Numbered from the stretch's first letter, positions 7,751-16,383 are shown. The stretch: 39,240 nucleotides of DNA from a virus (IMGVR_UViG_3300024319_000034:1-39240); one strand, 5' to 3'. Translations and numbers: made by a program. Notes: generated by a model not told the origin, from the letters alone.

Positions 7751-9153
7751 AGTTTTATCTTAATCTTCGACTTTGTTTTATTAATCTTTTCTTTCCTTAT
7801 TTCGTGTTTCTCTTTTAGTATTTTGTTAGTTTTGTTGCTGTTGTTTATTAAGTTTTTTGCTCGGTCTATTTCTTCAATAGTTGGAAAAAGTAAATTAATC
7901 GCATAGCGGAATGTGTCCACTAGGTGCAAATCAATCTTTTTTGATAGTTTCCCCGCATCCGTTGGAATAGCTTGTTTAATTTCGCTAATTAATGACTTGC
8001 AATTGACCTCATCAAAAACAATAGGCAATTTGTACAAAGCATCATTACAAATTCGCCTTGAATGTTCGTGTAATGCGTTAGCCTTTTTGGTTACTGCGCT
8101 AATCGGTTGCAAAAAATATTCCTCAATCTCAGAATAACACGTAACATTTCCACCAGCGGCGGAACGAGAATGTCCGTTATTGTCGCCCGTTATTATTAGA
8201 TTATATTTTTTAAATTGCTCCAATTTATCTAATAATTTTCTTAATCCACCATTCGACTCATAGCTATACAAAAACCTTATTCCTTTTACATAATCAAATT
8301 GAAAAACACAAACAGTTGAGGGATTGTAGTTGAAATCAAACGACAAATAAACATTTTGTGTGTCTATGATTTTTAAATCCTTTTTTACGTGTTTTTCATG
8401 CTTAAATTCATAAAAGAAAGGGTTTTCGTTTAAATTTAAATTCCAGTCGCCCTCCAATAGCATCTTATACATTAAAGGACTCAAATTATCCTTTTGCATC
8501 TGAATCCAATCTTTCTCCACATAAGGATTATCTACAACATTTGCAGGAATGTATTTCCATGACTTTTTCAATGTCCCCTTTACCCATTTGTCGTATATTT
8601 CAGATTTAACCCAGCCTTGCTGCGGGTTGCTTGTACCCAATACAATCTGAGGGGGAATTGCTCGACCTTGTTCCTTCGATTGTTTCCTATCACCCATTTT
8701 CCAAGTACCTGTCCTTTGTAAGCCCATCATGAAGCCCTCGAAGCTAACATCCATTTCCTCCATGCCAAAGCCATCTGCCTCTAATCCGCGAAACCTTTTC
8801 AAATCTGGGTCACGGTCTTTGTTCTCAGCAAAAAAAACAATGGAAGAACCATTTTTAAATTTTGCTGTAAAACTATTGTGCTGCGTAGGTTCGTTAACCA
8901 GGAACTCAGGCGGGCAAATATTGTAGAAGGTCGGGAAAACTGTAGATTTTATACGTTGTAAGTTCTTACGGACTATTATATACTTAGCCCCTGGAAATAG
9001 CTTACACATAAAAATGAAAAAGGCTAGGATGAAATAAGTCTTACCGCTCCTTACGCTGCCGCCCGCGAGTACAAACTGATACTTTCCACTAGCTGCAATT
9101 TCAAACCAACGCTCCTGGGCTGGAAAGGGTTTAAATAATATATTCTCCTTCAT
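7747..9153 (-). CDS. terL: Terminase large subunit, 468 aa
   Basis: The packaging motor: an ATPase that translocates DNA into the prohead and a nuclease that cuts it. Walker A is GGSVRSGKT (31-39); the Walker B region is FRGLEADGFGMEEMD (121-135), with acidic residues at the catalytic site. The C-terminal RNase H-like nuclease shows its three acidic positions in SFDFNYNP (D273), TGDNNGHS (D324) and HLVDTFRY (D413). The length is normal. The ATG overlaps the stop of the HNH gene by one base, and the stop overlaps the next gene by ATGA. Usually a portal gene follows; here a tail chaperone candidate does, so the head genes have been separated from the terminase. Confidence 0.93.
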   Translation of the reverse strand: MKENILFKPFPAQERWFEIAASGKYQFVLAGGSVRSGKTYFILAFFIFMCKLFPGAKYIIVRKNLQRIKSTVFPTFYNICPPEFLVNEPTQHNSFTAKFKNGSSIVFFAENKDRDPDLKRFRGLEADGFGMEEMDVSFEGFMMGLQRTGTWKMGDRKQSKEQGRAIPPQIVLGTSNPQQGWVKSEIYDKWVKGTLKKSWKYIPANVVDNPYVEKDWIQMQKDNLSPLMYKMLLEGDWNLNLNENPFFYEFKHEKHVKKDLKIIDTQNVYLSFDFNYNPSTVCVFQFDYVKGIRFLYSYESNGGLRKLLDKLEQFKKYNLIITGDNNGHSRSAAGGNVTCYSEIEEYFLQPISAVTKKANALHEHSRRICNDALYKLPIVFDEVNCKSLISEIKQAIPTDAGKLSKKIDLHLVDTFRYAINLLFPTIEEIDRAKNLINNSNKTNKILKEKHEIRKEKINKTKSKIKIKL

Positions 9154-9668
9154 TAATCAATTGTTACGTGTTTCCATTTCCTCCCCCTTTTTATATCTGA
9201 GATTGTGGCTGGGTTTACCCCGTATTTCCGACCTAAATCGTTATTAATTCCCCTATAAGGTTTTAGTAACTCTGTTTTAATTTCGACTACATTTTTATCT
9301 GTTAATTTAGCCCGATTATTATTTTCCCCTTTATTACAAGCTAACCCCGTCCTAAATGCATGTTTAACGTTTTCTGAGCCTGTGCAATACTCTAAATTAA
9401 GGAAATTATTATTTTTTTTGTTCCCATCAATGTGATTAACCTGTAAATCACTTTCTCCGTGAAATGTCAACATAATTAATCTATGTACTGCAAAATGAAC
9501 TCTTTTTTTGTTTTTGAATAATCTTACAGCCAAATAACCATACATAGTAATAACGGGTTTCAATTTCCTGCGTTCCCCAGTCTTATTATAATTTAATGAA
9601 TACACATTGCCGAAAATATCGCATTCGTAATCTTCATACCCAGGAACTACTTTTACTTCTGATATCAT
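9153..9668 (-). CDS. HNH homing endonuclease with NUMOD4-like N-terminus, 171 aa
   Basis: The N-terminus (VVPGYEDYECDIFGNVYSL) is a NUMOD4-like DNA-binding module. The HNH core follows: VHRLIMLTFHGE, then VNHIDGNKKNNNFLNLEYCT, with the H-N-H order intact. A C-terminal helix-turn-helix (DLGRKYGVNPATISDIKRGRKW) gives further DNA contacts. Family members are site-specific endonucleases, usually free-standing homing genes. It is wedged between the small and large terminase genes with an 11-nt gap on one side and a TAATG overlap on the other, so it is expressed with them. It is either a selfish gene or, as in some phages, a helper of terminase in cos cleavage. Confidence 0.88.
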   Translation of the reverse strand: MISEVKVVPGYEDYECDIFGNVYSLNYNKTGERRKLKPVITMYGYLAVRLFKNKKRVHFAVHRLIMLTFHGESDLQVNHIDGNKKNNNFLNLEYCTGSENVKHAFRTGLACNKGENNNRAKLTDKNVVEIKTELLKPYRGINNDLGRKYGVNPATISDIKRGRKWKHVTID

Positions 9669-11987: not shown

Positions 11988-12776
11988 TTAATTACTTAAT
12001 GGTGCTTTAATTTTTGGGTGTGATTTGTAATTTATCAATTCATAATCAAACTCGCCATTTAAAATATCTACATTAGATAGTTTTACGGTTGGTAAGTCGT
12101 AAGGTTCTCTTGTCAATTGCAATTTTGCTTGCTCGATATGATTACTATACAAGTGTACATCACCCAAACTCCCTATCAATTCGCCAGGTTCATACCCCGT
12201 TTCTTTGCAAAGTAATAACAATAACATACCGTAGGATGCAATATTATAGGGTAAACCCAAAAAAGTATCTACGGAACGCTGATTCCACATTAAAGATAAT
12301 TTTCTATTGTTGCTAACATAGCATTGAAAAGCATAATGACAAGGTGGGAGTGTCATTTGGTCAAGCTCTCCAACATTCCATGCTGATACCATATGCCTTC
12401 GTGAATCTCGATTTTTTCTCAACTCTTTTATTAAATTTGCAATTTGGTCAATACCGTCCCAATCTCTCCATTGCTTACCATAGATAGGACCTAATTCACC
12501 GTCTGTTCTTCCTGACTTCTTGTAATCCCCATTCCAAATATTGCATCCATTGTCTTGTAAGTATTTTATATTTGTATCCCCTTTCAGAAACCACTTTAAC
12601 TCTGTCATTACAGACTTCATAGACATTTCTTTTGTAGTCAAAAGAGGAAAACCTTCTTCCATGTCGTATCTTATAAAGCGACCAAAAACAGAAAAAGTTC
12701 CTGTTCCTGTTCTATCAGATTTTTTCCCTCCATTATCGAGAATGTCCTTTAATAAGTTTTTATATTGTTTATCCAT
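11988..12776 (-). CDS. thyA: Thymidylate synthase ThyA, 262 aa
   Basis: Converts dUMP to dTMP with methylenetetrahydrofolate, supplying the thymidine that an AT-rich genome needs. The catalytic cysteine is in LPPCHYAFQ (C146). Other hallmarks are RTGTGTFSVFG near the start, RRHMVSAWNV, LMWNQRSVDTFLGLPYNIAS and GDVHLYSNHI. The length matches the 264-aa bacterial enzyme; the C-terminus ends KAPLSN instead of the usual KAPVAV/I. A terminator hairpin lies 19 nt upstream of the ATG, so expression needs read-through or an unseen promoter. The first 19 codons are duplicated in the gene upstream (12883-13224). Confidence 0.95.
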   Translation of the reverse strand: MDKQYKNLLKDILDNGGKKSDRTGTGTFSVFGRFIRYDMEEGFPLLTTKEMSMKSVMTELKWFLKGDTNIKYLQDNGCNIWNGDYKKSGRTDGELGPIYGKQWRDWDGIDQIANLIKELRKNRDSRRHMVSAWNVGELDQMTLPPCHYAFQCYVSNNRKLSLMWNQRSVDTFLGLPYNIASYGMLLLLLCKETGYEPGELIGSLGDVHLYSNHIEQAKLQLTREPYDLPTVKLSNVDILNGEFDYELINYKSHPKIKAPLSN

Positions 12777-12794
12777 TTTTTTAGTTTTGTTTTT

Positions 12795-12864: not shown

Positions 12865-12897
12865 GTAAAGTATTTTTAATTCTTAAAGATACTTTAC
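12865..12897 (-). repeat. Inverted repeat spanning a stop codon
   Basis: Perfect 9-bp arms GTAAAGTAT/ATACTTTAC separated by 15 nt. The 5' arm is the coding sequence for the last residues of the 113-aa protein (V-K-Y) and the loop contains its stop codon. No T tract follows, so it is probably an mRNA-stabilising or processing hairpin rather than a terminator. Confidence 0.5.
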
Positions 12898-13224
12898 AAT
12901 TCTGATTCTAATTTCGATAAACTCTTGAGGAAAAAAACTTCTATTAGATTGTTTCATATTCCATTCATTTTCCTCCTTTCTATAAAGAAAAACTCTCCCT
13001 GATAATCCATTTTTACCCAACTTAAATAATACACCATCTACATTCAACTCAAGTGGGGTTTTAAAATTATCGTCTTTATCAATATATTTTAAGCATTCAT
13101 GTAAACCCTCTTTTGTACATTTTGCACGAAAAATCAAACCATAAATACCTGTTCTTTCTATTTTAAATTTTTTCCCTCCATTGTCGAGAATGTCCTTGAG
13201 CAGTTTTTTATATTGTTTATCCAT
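12883..13224 (-). CDS. 113-aa protein whose N-terminus copies ThyA
   Basis: The first 19 residues (MDKQYKKLLKDILDNGGKK) equal those of ThyA except one N-to-K change. At DNA level about 48 of the first 56 bases agree, and most differences are silent. After that only traces remain (ERTGIYG versus DRTGTGT). The remaining 90 residues contain ECLKYIDKDDNFKTPLELNV, then KLGKNGLSGRVFLYRKEENE, and no ThyA catalytic motif. It is therefore not a thymidylate synthase. Possible explanations are a partial duplication fused to another gene, or an unrelated gene whose start was replaced by recombination. Its function is unknown. Confidence 0.65.
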   Translation of the reverse strand: MDKQYKKLLKDILDNGGKKFKIERTGIYGLIFRAKCTKEGLHECLKYIDKDDNFKTPLELNVDGVLFKLGKNGLSGRVFLYRKEENEWNMKQSNRSFFPQEFIEIRIRIVKYL

Positions 13225-13240
13225 AATATTTATTTTTTAA

Positions 13241-13298
13241 TCCTAACAAACGTTATATGTACAACTCTAAGCGAGCCGTCAAATAGCTTGTGTTAGCC
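13241..13298 (-). repeat. Boundary element E1, inverted-repeat ends (cassette-like)
   Basis: Between the methyltransferase and the 113-aa gene lies a 58-nt element whose ends are imperfect inverted repeats (CTAACAAA at 13243-13250, TTGTGTTAG at 13288-13296 on the plus strand). It contains CGTTATATGTACAA, similar to CGTTATGTACAA in element E2. The stop codon of the methyltransferase falls inside one arm. The layout resembles an integron attC site, but the core heptamers do not fit the consensus exactly. Confidence 0.4.
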
Positions 13299-14012
13299 AC
13301 AATACACAAAAAGCTTGTCGGTCTTTTTAATATTTCCAGTATTACTTCCGTTTCCTAACTGTGTATTTGTTAAAACTTCTTTAATACATTTAAAATCGTT
13401 TGGTGCGTTGTATTCACTTACAAATACTTGGTGTCCTTCTTTGGTTTTATTTCTGCACCATTCCCAAAATTCAGTGTGGTTAAAATCATCTTTGTATTTT
13501 GTTGTTCCCTCATACGGTGGGTCGCAATAAATTAAGCTGTTTTCAGGTATTTCTAAATCTTGGTAACTACTATGTATAAATTCAACATCTTGTATCTTTG
13601 GTAATTGTTTCAACACTCCATTTCTACTTTCTTTTTGGTGGTTTGGTAACCTTCCGTTTTTAAGCCTTCTATTTTCTTTATAATCATTTATCCAACCCCC
13701 AAACCATTTACCACCATAACTACAGCATATACCAGCCCAAAGAGTCATTTTAGTATTATTTTCTTTATTGTCTTTTATTTTGTAATACTCTTCTTTTGTA
13801 ACGTGTTCTGGGGGTAGCCATCCGTTTTTTAATTCATTCCAAAAATCAATTAAATATTTGTTAAAGTCTGCTCCAATTCTTTTTCCTTCAACCTTATCAA
13901 TCATATTCGCACCACCCACAAAAGGTTCAACCCAAGTTTTGCCGTTTCTATTTTCTAACATTATAGGCAACAAATGTTTTGCTATCCTATTTTTACTTCC
14001 CATGTATTTCAT
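13293..14012 (-). CDS. D12-class N6-adenine DNA methyltransferase (Dam-like), 239 aa
   Basis: Transfers a methyl group from SAM to adenine N6 in a specific DNA site. Visible motifs: N-terminal YMGSK (3-7), SAM-binding EPFVGGA (29-35), the catalytic DPPY (164-167) in LIYCDPPYEGTTKY, and the D12-family VSEYNAP (198-204). The length is typical for a phage Dam. No cognate endonuclease is present, so it is an orphan enzyme, probably protecting phage DNA from restriction or regulating genes. It lies about 1.5 kb downstream of a Mom-like gene and is bordered by CGTTAT-containing elements on both sides (14031-14050, 13241-13298), suggesting acquisition as a unit. Confidence 0.9.
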   Translation of the reverse strand: MKYMGSKNRIAKHLLPIMLENRNGKTWVEPFVGGANMIDKVEGKRIGADFNKYLIDFWNELKNGWLPPEHVTKEEYYKIKDNKENNTKMTLWAGICCSYGGKWFGGWINDYKENRRLKNGRLPNHQKESRNGVLKQLPKIQDVEFIHSSYQDLEIPENSLIYCDPPYEGTTKYKDDFNHTEFWEWCRNKTKEGHQVFVSEYNAPNDFKCIKEVLTNTQLGNGSNTGNIKKTDKLFVYCG

Positions 14013-14036
14013 TTGTCTATTTATTTTTTAAGTCCG

Positions 14037-14696
14037 TTATAAATAACTTTGTATCTCTTTTATTTTCTCCCTAGCTTTTTTTGCATCCTGGAAACAAAAT
14101 CCTTCAAGGTGACACTTGTAAATTTCTTGCATCTCAACCGCAGCATCGTTATACATTTTCCTACAATCTTCAATTTCTTGCTTTGTTACAGTCCGTTTGA
14201 ATCGTTCAATCCTACCCGTAAACTCAACACCCCCTTTTACGTTTGCGTCCCTTGTTTCCATCCAAATTAACTCGCTAGTCGGAATAATTCCAAAAGCATC
14301 GTAAATCATAAGTGAATACGTATCTAATTGCAAATGGTTGTCTACTCTCTCCTGATTCCATTCTGCTTTCCCAGTTTTGTACTCTGTTACGTGCGTGTAA
14401 TCTTCACTACAAGCATCCAAATAACCAATAATGTAAAATCCTCTTTGTTGCAATACAAGGCAAACTTCAGCTGGGTCTTTTACTTTTGCACGTCCAACAA
14501 CCTCCATAATATCGGTGTCAATCTTGAAGAAGTTTTCTTCCTCCAAAGCGTCCGAAACTCTACGCCCAAATATCATTTCTTTTGACGTAAAAAAGGGTTC
14601 TTTAAATATATATCGCTGTATCCATTGTCGGCGTGTTGACGTTGCATTGAACGCCCGCACAGCCGAATAACTTAAATAATTTTTTGGTAATTTCAT
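14037..14696 (-). CDS. PD-(D/E)XK exonuclease (RecB/Cas4-like), 219 aa
   Basis: A RecB-family nuclease probably working with the protein encoded just upstream in recombination or replication repair. The core shows YIIGYLDACSEDY (Asp), VTEYKTGKAEWNQ (E-x-K), and LQLDTYSLMIYDAFG, the Q-x-x-x-Y helix of RecB nucleases. The N-terminal LSYSAVRAF and RYIFKEPF resemble the start of phage Cas4-like exonucleases. Its ATG overlaps the stop of the upstream gene by one base (TAATG). The TAA stop falls within TTTATAACGG, similar to boundary elements E1 and E3. Confidence 0.75.
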   Translation of the reverse strand: MKLPKNYLSYSAVRAFNATSTRRQWIQRYIFKEPFFTSKEMIFGRRVSDALEEENFFKIDTDIMEVVGRAKVKDPAEVCLVLQQRGFYIIGYLDACSEDYTHVTEYKTGKAEWNQERVDNHLQLDTYSLMIYDAFGIIPTSELIWMETRDANVKGGVEFTGRIERFKRTVTKQEIEDCRKMYNDAAVEMQEIYKCHLEGFCFQDAKKAREKIKEIQSYL

Positions 14697-15298
14697 TATA
14701 ATATTATTGTTTCTTTTGTAGAGATTTTTAATAACTTTAGTGCGTCATTTGTGTATTGGCTATATCTCACATCCATTTTAGCTTTAATCTGCTGAAACGT
14801 CAAACCTTGCTCCACGTACATCAATATAGCTTTTTTTGTTTTCTCAAACTCCGCAGTATTGAAAATTAATTTCACCTCAGCTGTTGGTTGTGGTGCAGTT
14901 TCTTGTACTTGTTGGGGTTTTTTAAAGTCCTCGCTTTCATCTTCTCCAAAAATACCTAGTTCGTATAGTCCAGTTATCTTTAACACTATCCTAGACATTG
15001 CACGCTTTTCTGCGATTTCTGTCACATAATAGCTATTGGTGTTACCATCTCGGAAACTCTTACCTTTTACTGCACTTCCAAATGTTTGGATTTTTACATT
15101 GTCCTTTTGACCTAGCGCTTTAATTACTACAAAATCACGTTCGCACTTGATAACTTCATAGTTAATGTTAATATTTTCAACACCCATTATCTTCTCAATT
15201 CCTGAACGGGTGATGATTAAATAATGTTGATGTTTGAAAATGTCCTCTTTTTCGAGGTTGTACTTTCTATAAATCTCTGCTAATTTTTCCTTTTTCAT
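14696..15298 (-). CDS. Putative recombination or ssDNA-associated protein, 200 aa
   Basis: The central part (KHQHYLIITRSGIEKIMGVE, then VVIKALGQKDNVKIQTFGSA, then TEIAEKRAMSRIVLKITGLY) resembles a family in Bacteroidetes phages in which a small beta-sheet core precedes an AEKR...R.VLK helix. That helix, with 'mutually conserved Ala-Glu-Lys-Arg', is also seen in Rad52/Erf-like annealing proteins. A Pro/Gln linker then leads to a C-terminal helical domain. It is coupled to a RecB-like exonuclease, so an exonuclease/annealing-protein pair is a reasonable inference, not a certain one. A near-consensus promoter lies 30 nt upstream. Confidence 0.55.
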   Translation of the reverse strand: MKKEKLAEIYRKYNLEKEDIFKHQHYLIITRSGIEKIMGVENININYEVIKCERDFVVIKALGQKDNVKIQTFGSAVKGKSFRDGNTNSYYVTEIAEKRAMSRIVLKITGLYELGIFGEDESEDFKKPQQVQETAPQPTAEVKLIFNTAEFEKTKKAILMYVEQGLTFQQIKAKMDVRYSQYTNDALKLLKISTKETIIL

Positions 15299-15327
15299 TG
15301 TTTAAAATTTTAATTGTTAATAATAAT

Positions 15328-15359
15328 CAAATGTACACATTATATTTTAAAAAACCAAA
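15328..15359 (-). promoter_or_regulatory. Bacteroidetes-type promoter for the recombination pair
   Basis: TTTG at 15359-15356, 20 nt, TACATTTG at 15335-15328. The leader of about 24 nt contains TTATTAACAATTAAA and ends AAACAATG, the same leader design as at 321, 1235 and 23608. Confidence 0.75.
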
Positions 15360-15395
15360 TAACAATTGTTAAATCGTCAATTTCGTTCCTCAACT

Positions 15396-15458
15396 GCGTT
15401 TAACTTTGCGTTATGTACAATATAGCTAAGGTCATTGCTAAAACAAAGTTTTAGGCTT
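15396..15458 (-). repeat. Boundary element E2 with perfect hairpin
   Basis: Downstream of the Mom-like gene. It holds a perfect 7-bp hairpin (CTAAAAC/GTTTTAG, 3-nt loop, 15438-15454) and the motif CGTTATGTACAA shared with element E1. TAAGCCTAAAAC next to the gene is an inverted copy of GTGTTAGGCTTA in element E3 on its other side, so the gene is bracketed by inverted repeats. No T tract, so not a standard terminator. Confidence 0.4.
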
Positions 15459-15464
15459 AATTAC

Positions 15465-16172
15465 CTAATCATTATTATAATGCTTTAAGTATGGTTTTTC
15501 TTCTTTAGTACATTTGCTTTTCCACCTTTTATCTAAAAACTTAATGTATCTAAATTGTCTTAAATCATGCTTAATAGCATTTTCTTTATTCAGTTGTAAA
15601 TATTGGCAACCACCAACATTATTTTTATATCTTGTGCTTTTTTTAGATACTGTCATACTTGTATTATGGTAAACAATATTTTCTAACTCCCAAAAACTAC
15701 TCGTGTGCTCCCCATAAAAACCAAAGCTACACGCTTGGTAAACAATACCTAAACCGCCACATCTTTCATCAGCAAAACTTTGAATCCATTTTATGGTTTT
15801 TATTTTACCTTTTATGTACTTAATACTGTATGCAATAGCCATACTTTCACTATTTCTTTCAGCTTTATCATCTAACCACATTCGGTTAAGTTCTAAGTAT
15901 TGGTTCATTTCAGTACCTTTTACAAGGCTCGCCCCACTTGCTGGGTTCATAGCATAACCATATTGTAATACGCCTAAAAACTCACCTTTAATAAAAACAC
16001 CTAAATTAATATAAGTACCATTATAAACCTTTTTACTATAATGGTTTTTTATTATGGTTTTGTTTGCTTCTTTTCTGTCAATTTCTTTTACATAAAAATC
16101 ATCAGTACCATAACCAATAATATCTTTATGTCCAAACATTGGTATTTGTTCACTATAAATATATCCTTTCAT
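15465..16172 (-). CDS. Mom-like DNA adenine-modification protein, 235 aa
   Basis: Resembles the Mu Mom family (GNAT-like fold), which converts adenine in DNA to a carbamoylmethyl derivative and blocks many restriction enzymes. Matching features in order: NHYSKKVYNGTYINLGVF (43-60), a GVLQYGYAMNP turn (67-77), YLELNRMWLDD with RNSESMAIAY (92-115), IKWIQSFADE (127-136) and GIVYQACSFGFYG (142-154). The C-terminal 70 residues are basic and probably contact DNA. It is flanked on both sides by hairpin-bearing elements (E3, E2), and a Dam-like gene lies nearby. In Mu, mom expression depends on Dam; whether that applies here is unknown. Confidence 0.7.
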   Translation of the reverse strand: MKGYIYSEQIPMFGHKDIIGYGTDDFYVKEIDRKEANKTIIKNHYSKKVYNGTYINLGVFIKGEFLGVLQYGYAMNPASGASLVKGTEMNQYLELNRMWLDDKAERNSESMAIAYSIKYIKGKIKTIKWIQSFADERCGGLGIVYQACSFGFYGEHTSSFWELENIVYHNTSMTVSKKSTRYKNNVGGCQYLQLNKENAIKHDLRQFRYIKFLDKRWKSKCTKEEKPYLKHYNND

Positions 16173-16197
16173 TTTGTTTTGTTTAAATTAAAACTAA

Positions 16198-16256
16198 GCC
16201 TAACACGGTATAAATAACATGGCAAAAAAGCCACGTTTCTTATACTAACCGTTATA
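16198..16256 (-). repeat. Boundary element E3 with 16-bp hairpin ahead of the Mom-like gene
   Basis: Arms GTATAAATAACATGGC (16208-16223) and GCCACGTTTCTTATAC (16230-16245) form a 16-bp stem (13 Watson-Crick pairs, two wobble in the RNA, one mismatch) closed by a six-U loop on the minus strand. Outside it, GCCTAACACGG and CCGTTA extend the symmetry. The 42-aa gene's stop lies in the distal arm (ATATAACGG). No T tract follows. It may be a leader structure controlling the Mom-like gene or a recombination site. Confidence 0.5.
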
Positions 16257-16380
16257 TATAATTAATAAGTTTTGTAAACTCTTGTTTATCAATCTTTTGT
16301 GAAATAGTCCACATCCATATTAAAACAATCTTGTCATCCTTTGCCCTTGTAGAATCAAGGATTTTAATTAACTTTTTCAT
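16252..16380 (-). CDS. Small protein, 42 aa
   Basis: A short basic frame starting MKKLIKILDSTRAKDDKIVL and ending with DKQEFTKLINYI, probably helical and soluble, with a tryptophan-rich middle (IWMWTI). The ATG lies 3 nt after the stop of the nuclease gene. The stop codon falls in the outer arm of hairpin element E3. No homology is recognised; coding is inferred from tight spacing and composition. Confidence 0.5.
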   Translation of the reverse strand: MKKLIKILDSTRAKDDKIVLIWMWTISQKIDKQEFTKLINYI

Positions 16381-16383
16381 AGT

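Follow-up and report, generated by a model that had tools for sequence, protein, structure and literature searches.

Probable arrival of a phage mom gene, and formerly of an adenine methyltransferase gene, as integron-type cassettes

How do phages come by the genes with which they modify their DNA? The question is raised by the virus record IMGVR_UViG_3300024319_000034, whose 39,240 bases were analysed as a whole and are called the window here. Two of its minus-strand genes encode a D12-class N6-adenine DNA methyltransferase of 239 amino acids (13293..14012; Pfam PF02086 MethyltransfD12, 63.5 bits, E=3e-17; PHROG 56) and a Mom protein of 235 amino acids (15465..16172; Pfam PF25680, 222 bits with a cut-off of 27.1, E=7e-66). 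These profiles confirm both genes as named in an earlier, sequence-only reading, which had also proposed that they were gained as mobile anti-restriction cassettes through an integron-like or some other mechanism. They are separated by two genes, one for a PDDEXK nuclease and one whose product belongs to an unknown family, hence the two cassettes would not be adjacent. Our analysis indicates that mom, and formerly the methyltransferase gene, probably entered the phage as integron-type gene cassettes by way of a trans-acting tyrosine recombinase.

We gathered the loci of methyltransferase and Mom relatives from IMG/VR and inspected their flanks. Hairpins that read TAACG-5 nt-stem-CGTTTTAATG-stem-3 nt-GTTA frame some Mom and many methyltransferase relatives. 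From 12 such elements of other phages, and none from the window, we made a covariance model (R1); a second one (R2) was made from 57 matches. Of the 18 stem pairs in R1, 9 have compensatory changes, a level never reached in 500 shuffles. When applied to the window, R1 gave a single significant match, element C (16198..16257, minus strand; 60.8 bits, E=1.3e-13), with the runner-up at 11.8 bits; under R2 element C scores 50.8 bits. It is an attC-type site with a TAACG...GTTAGGC hairpin located directly before the Mom cassette, and its crossover point, G|TT, lies between 16204 and 16203. Its folding exceeds chance (z = -3.6, 0 of 200 shuffles as good), which is true of no other element in the window. 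The stop codon of a 42-codon open reading frame upstream of element C (16255..16383, minus strand, read from the sequence) is located within R'' (TATATAACGG). Among 46 phage elements, 45 (98%) start at most 61 nt past a same-strand stop codon, compared with 30% for random positions, and in 16 of the 46 the TAAC box itself supplies the stop codon TAA, which thus lies in R''.

The borders of the Mom cassette (15451..16203, minus strand) can be read from a comparison with another, unrelated viral contig (L049) that has this cassette in common with the window. DNA homology extends from position 16255 in element C to position 15451 in the R'' of element B, and then ends. The cassette thus consists of the left end TTAGGCTTA..., the gene, and the right end TAAGCCTAA, and the two ends are complementary over 9 nt. 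In integrons, the R' at the 5' end of a cassette and the R'' at its 3' end derive from one site, and no match is required between the two halves of an integrated element. The ends within one cassette are complementary because both halves stem from one integron site. This pattern is found across the element family: within cassettes, the left end matches its own R'' at 3.81 of 6 variable positions, compared with 2.06 within elements and 2.26 after shuffling (0/10000). The result was replicated in a gene-agnostic viral sample, for which loci were picked by the element alone (4.76 vs 2.79 of 7), and in chromosomes (3.44 vs 2.27). Flanks of the R''(...AAC)/R'(GTTRRRY) type are present upstream of mom, in element C. 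Downstream lies element B (15396..15459, minus strand), a degenerate attC of the Mom cassette that has retained its R'' TAAGCCTAA and has GTTAAAC as R' without a significant score. Its hairpin body has been replaced or has decayed; L049 has the R'' in common with element B, and the body is unlike.

The methyltransferase gene is followed by element A (13242..13300, minus strand), a degenerate attC in which the TAA stop codon of the gene lies within R'' (GTGGCTAAC) and R' reads GTTAGGA. The R'' is identical in cassette-borne methyltransferase relatives, and the right end TTTGTGTATTGTGGCTAA recurs identically or nearly so in seven of them (L091, L094, L095, L097, L099, L108 and L119), most of which have TTAGCCA(C) as left cassette end. 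The final 19 nt of the window's cassette, TTTGTGTATTGTGGCTAAC, and the leader AAAATAAATAGACAAATG are likewise common to cassette-borne relatives, whose left end is the complement, TTAGCCAC. In the window, that left end is missing. At 14013..14035 (minus strand) the stop codon of the PDDEXK gene is joined to the cassette leader AAAATAAATAGACAA, which also occurs in L091, there with GTTAGCCATAATAC ahead of it. The proposal of cassette gain is therefore well supported for mom, through the score of element C, the borders seen in L049 and the complementary ends, and plausible for the methyltransferase, through its cassette-type right end. As a separate observation, a contig of a Bacteroidetes metagenome-assembled genome (ADurb.Bin008; L169:2405-4228) carries an 82%-identical methyltransferase together with a second, N6_N4-like one, in cassettes with complementary ends.

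Not all parts of the sequence-only reading fared equally well. Inverted TAAC/GTTA-type ends are indeed present in all three of its larger elements, at 13242-13300, 15396-15459 and 16198-16257, with a hairpin above chance in the last one only, and stop codons do fall in element arms, that of the methyltransferase gene being one. CGTTAT(AT)GTACAA, taken as a recurrent unit, had to be given up: it is missing from the strongest element, and when up to 2 mismatches are allowed it occurs 7 times in the window, where 5.4 occurrences are expected. Its extended form elsewhere in viral contigs lies mostly inside coding sequence, as chance occurrences. We also rejected TTGTACATAACG followed by GTTRRRY as an element, since a scan of viral contigs returned 13 contigs, of which two are this phage and the rest are scattered, with the motif mostly in coding sequence. 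The short element supposed at 14034 ('CGTTATAAATAAC') neither folds nor scores. Instead of the four intact border sites that had been implied, covariance models support element C; elements A and B are degenerate, the site at 14034 is null, and the left site of the methyltransferase gene is gone.

According to the mechanism that we propose, a cassette would comprise one promoterless gene and a hairpin attC site. A trans-acting tyrosine recombinase, in or from a bacterial cell, would recombine the site at G|TTRRR, and the cassette would be inserted beside another attC in a phage operon, where its gene could be transcribed by phage read-through. We infer that an IntI-like enzyme was the mover. 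Present mobility of this copy is probably low, because its sites are mostly decayed (elements A and B, and the lost left end).

Several results weigh against this reading. Element A remains below significance under R1 (E=1.5) and likewise under R2, with weak inner-arm complementarity (p = 0.027), and element B is not significant under either model (p = 0.15 for the arms); on these scores and arm tests, both were rejected as canonical attC sites. If a cluster of attC sites lacking an integrase (CALIN) is taken as at least two attC in about 3-4 kb without intI, the window offers one clear site (C) and two degenerate ones (A and B). A search of the record with the IntI profile TIGR02249 gave no match, and the window does not represent a complete integron, i.e. 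intI plus attI. Among 18 related phage records with R1 elements, none has IntI over the cut-off; one phage contig with R1 elements gave a weak match only, in which the middle of the profile is missing. IntI was found over the NCBIfam cut-off in 103 of 385 sampled Bacteroidota genomes, and 67 Bacteroidota IntI neighbourhoods contain zero R1 or R2 elements. Conversely, in one Bacteroidota family (that of G327) at least 28 of 150 genomes bear elements and none of the 150 has IntI, although the profile does detect IntI elsewhere in the phylum. Because the chromosome searches were strictly filtered, counts of element-bearing genomes are lower bounds. Two observations place the sampled genomes in the Bacteroidota: the phylum to which Gaoshiqia sediminis (G003) belongs, and SusD in 8 of 12 tested. 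Searches for relatives of the backbone (PDDEXK, the open reading frame at 14696, TerL and SNase proteins) yielded only near-identical phage copies or non-syntenic proteins, with no divergent relative that could show an empty site. Finally, most Mom homologues in other phages sit in ordinary operons without elements, with some Mom relatives being framed.

The distribution of IntI bears on an explanation in which a non-integron recombinase of Bacteroidota or phages, acting on hairpins or single-stranded DNA, moved the cassettes, so that the likeness to attC would be due to functional convergence or distant kinship. The family that bears elements without IntI, the IntI genes that have no such elements beside them, and the phages without IntI over the cut-off are what this explanation would predict. 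Yet class 1 IntI1 was active in E. coli on at least one attC of Polaribacter phage P12002L (PMC9892861), which may or may not be among the R1 sites described here. Moreover, the G|TTRRRY consensus and the R''/R' ends are those of integrons, and with IntI in more than a quarter of the sampled Bacteroidota genomes a donor cell could supply the enzyme. We therefore regard a recombinase of another kind as unlikely. It is far less probable still that the hairpins are ordinary terminators or attenuators and that the genes came by homologous or illegitimate recombination. Such an origin would suit elements that fold and sit just past stop codons, and the weak hairpins of A and B, but it fails to account for the complementarity between the 5' flank of a gene and the element at that gene's 3' end (0/10000), for homology between genomes ending at the elements, and for the invariant TAAC/GTTA ends; the IntI1-active site in P12002L also speaks against it.

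A narrower alternative accepts mom as the sole cassette and takes the methyltransferase gene as an old phage gene with an R''-like end arisen by chance. The left end of this gene is siteless, element A does not score, and many methyltransferase homologues elsewhere have no elements. Against this stands that TTTGTGTATTGTGGCTAAC and the leader AAAATAAATAGACAAATG are common to cassette-borne relatives and that TTAGCCAC is the left end there, and we consider a chance origin of this end improbable. Acquisition of both genes as integron-type cassettes thus remains the reading that we prefer.

The orientation of gene and element distinguishes phage cassettes from chromosomal ones. In the sampled viral contigs the gene-to-element polarity is fixed, at 95:0 in all; this comprises 50:0 in loci anchored on the methyltransferase or Mom and their neighbours, and 45:0, with one ambiguous case, in the gene-agnostic sample. 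Hits within one contig are not independent, and every scorable viral contig agrees. In Bacteroidota chromosomes, in contrast, the same element type has the reversed polarity, at 4:51. Counting the loop motif downstream of stop codons, with no model involved, gave 45:0 for viral and 4:31 for chromosomal sequences. A gene followed by an attC in the canonical direction is usual in integrons, but not strictly defining. Judging from the short left and long right spacer, as compared with the IntI-adjacent arrays L254 and L255, the chromosomal direction would be the canonical one. The phage elements do not conform to the usual integron polarity and run opposite to the chromosomal ones. Cargo differs as well. 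Among the larger viral cassette proteins of the gene-agnostic sample, 14 of 20 pass the Pfam cut-offs for families of DNA-modification enzymes (N6_N4, D12, C5, MT-A70 and Mom), compared with 0 of 20 chromosomal cassette proteins (p=3e-6). The chromosomal short-attC arrays in Bacteroidota (L336-L355) resemble the phage cassettes in the hairpin with loop CGTTTTAATG and in self-complementary cassette ends, whereas the gene lies opposite to the element and the cargo consists of metabolic enzymes. In eight of these arrays (L336, L337 and L340-L345), for which no IntI was found, the large metabolic genes include those for beta-lactamase-family proteins, amidase and esterases.

New here are the fixed viral polarity, the bias of the cargo towards DNA modification, and the lack of any IntI hit over the cut-off in these phages or the 150 genomes of the sampled family. 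When cassettes are picked solely by recombination site, most turn out to encode DNA-modification enzymes, which suggests that this means of counter-defence recurs among Bacteroidota phages. The inverted, fixed polarity and the IntI-free family pose the question of which recombinase moves the cassettes and why the gene is reversed. One tentative, rather doubtful answer is that Bacteroidota phages share a dedicated cassette pool, mostly for DNA modification, with the gene inverted with respect to attC when compared with chromosomal cassettes of this attC type, and moved by a recombinase other than chromosomal IntI. If so, phages would exchange anti-restriction genes through a system of their own, and orphan methyltransferases in phages would gain a defined route of exchange.

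What the two genes may be needed for is suggested by the composition of the window. Palindromes are strongly depleted over its whole length (observed/expected: GATC 0/70, GGCC 0/24, CCGG 1/38, CGCG 5/35), and their loss is a strong sign of past restriction pressure on the phage. Flavobacterium psychrophilum has an orphan GATC methyltransferase besides systems of the HpaII (CCGG) and FnuDII (CGCG) types (PMC11837570). The products of the methyltransferase and mom genes probably protect phage DNA from host restriction by modifying it. The label 'Dam-like', given to the methyltransferase in the sequence-only reading, is apt as far as the D12 domain is concerned, but GATC methylation could not act on the phage's own DNA: a GATC-specific methylase would be idle on this genome because GATC is already gone. 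The enzyme should be read simply as D12-class.

Nearly all genes of the window are on the minus strand. Those recognised include genes for terminase, tape measure, thymidylate synthase, dUTPase, replication organiser and endolysin. Promoter-like TTTG-N17-23-TAnnTTTG sequences occur at 9 minus-strand sites, compared with 2.0 expected (e.g. 15328, 1275, 1906, 18531 and 23639), and explain several repeat families of the window. Because of these sites and of the relatives of the phage, its host is probably a member of the Bacteroidota. An Rfam search of the window gave zero matches. Directly beyond element A lies a partial duplication of thyA (12883-13224 and 12695-12788): a 113-amino-acid open reading frame opens with about the first 20 codons of thyA and its upstream region, shares 79% over 94 nt with the adjacent thyA, and then continues with unrelated sequence. 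Another gene, resembling HNH/NUMOD4 homing endonucleases (9153-9668), directly adjoins that for the terminase large subunit.

Several known systems resemble this locus in part. Few complete integrons have been noted in the Bacteroidota phylum (PMC9024848); IntI is commoner in our sample than this would suggest. The chromosomal IntI integrons of that sample (L254 and L255), which are complete, with IntI and cassette arrays, share with the phage cassettes the R''/R' ends, the G|TTRRR crossover and self-complementary cassette ends. They differ in having intI adjacent and longer, different attC sites, none of which was matched by R1 or R2. A close parallel is P12002L, for which a CALIN was described by Qi et al. 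2023 (PMC9892861); a 2023 report lists attC in 21 phages, one of them with methyltransferase cassettes. In P12002L (L003), homologues of the window's methyltransferase (54% identity) and Mom (29% identity) adjoin R1 sites of 53 and 33 bits. In a second cassette cluster of that phage (29248-32284), R1 sites lie between the genes of three additional DNA methyltransferases. Both phages lack an integrase and have DNA-modification genes in single-gene cassettes with the same element type. In contrast to P12002L, the window has one scoring site only, its two genes are split by backbone genes and one left end is lost, so that it would be missed by the two-attC rule applied in the P12002L work. The Mom protein, finally, belongs to the same family (PF25680) as that of phage Mu, with 44% identity over 91%; but whereas mom of Mu is a fixed late gene, mom of the window is cassette-borne and adjoins an attC site.

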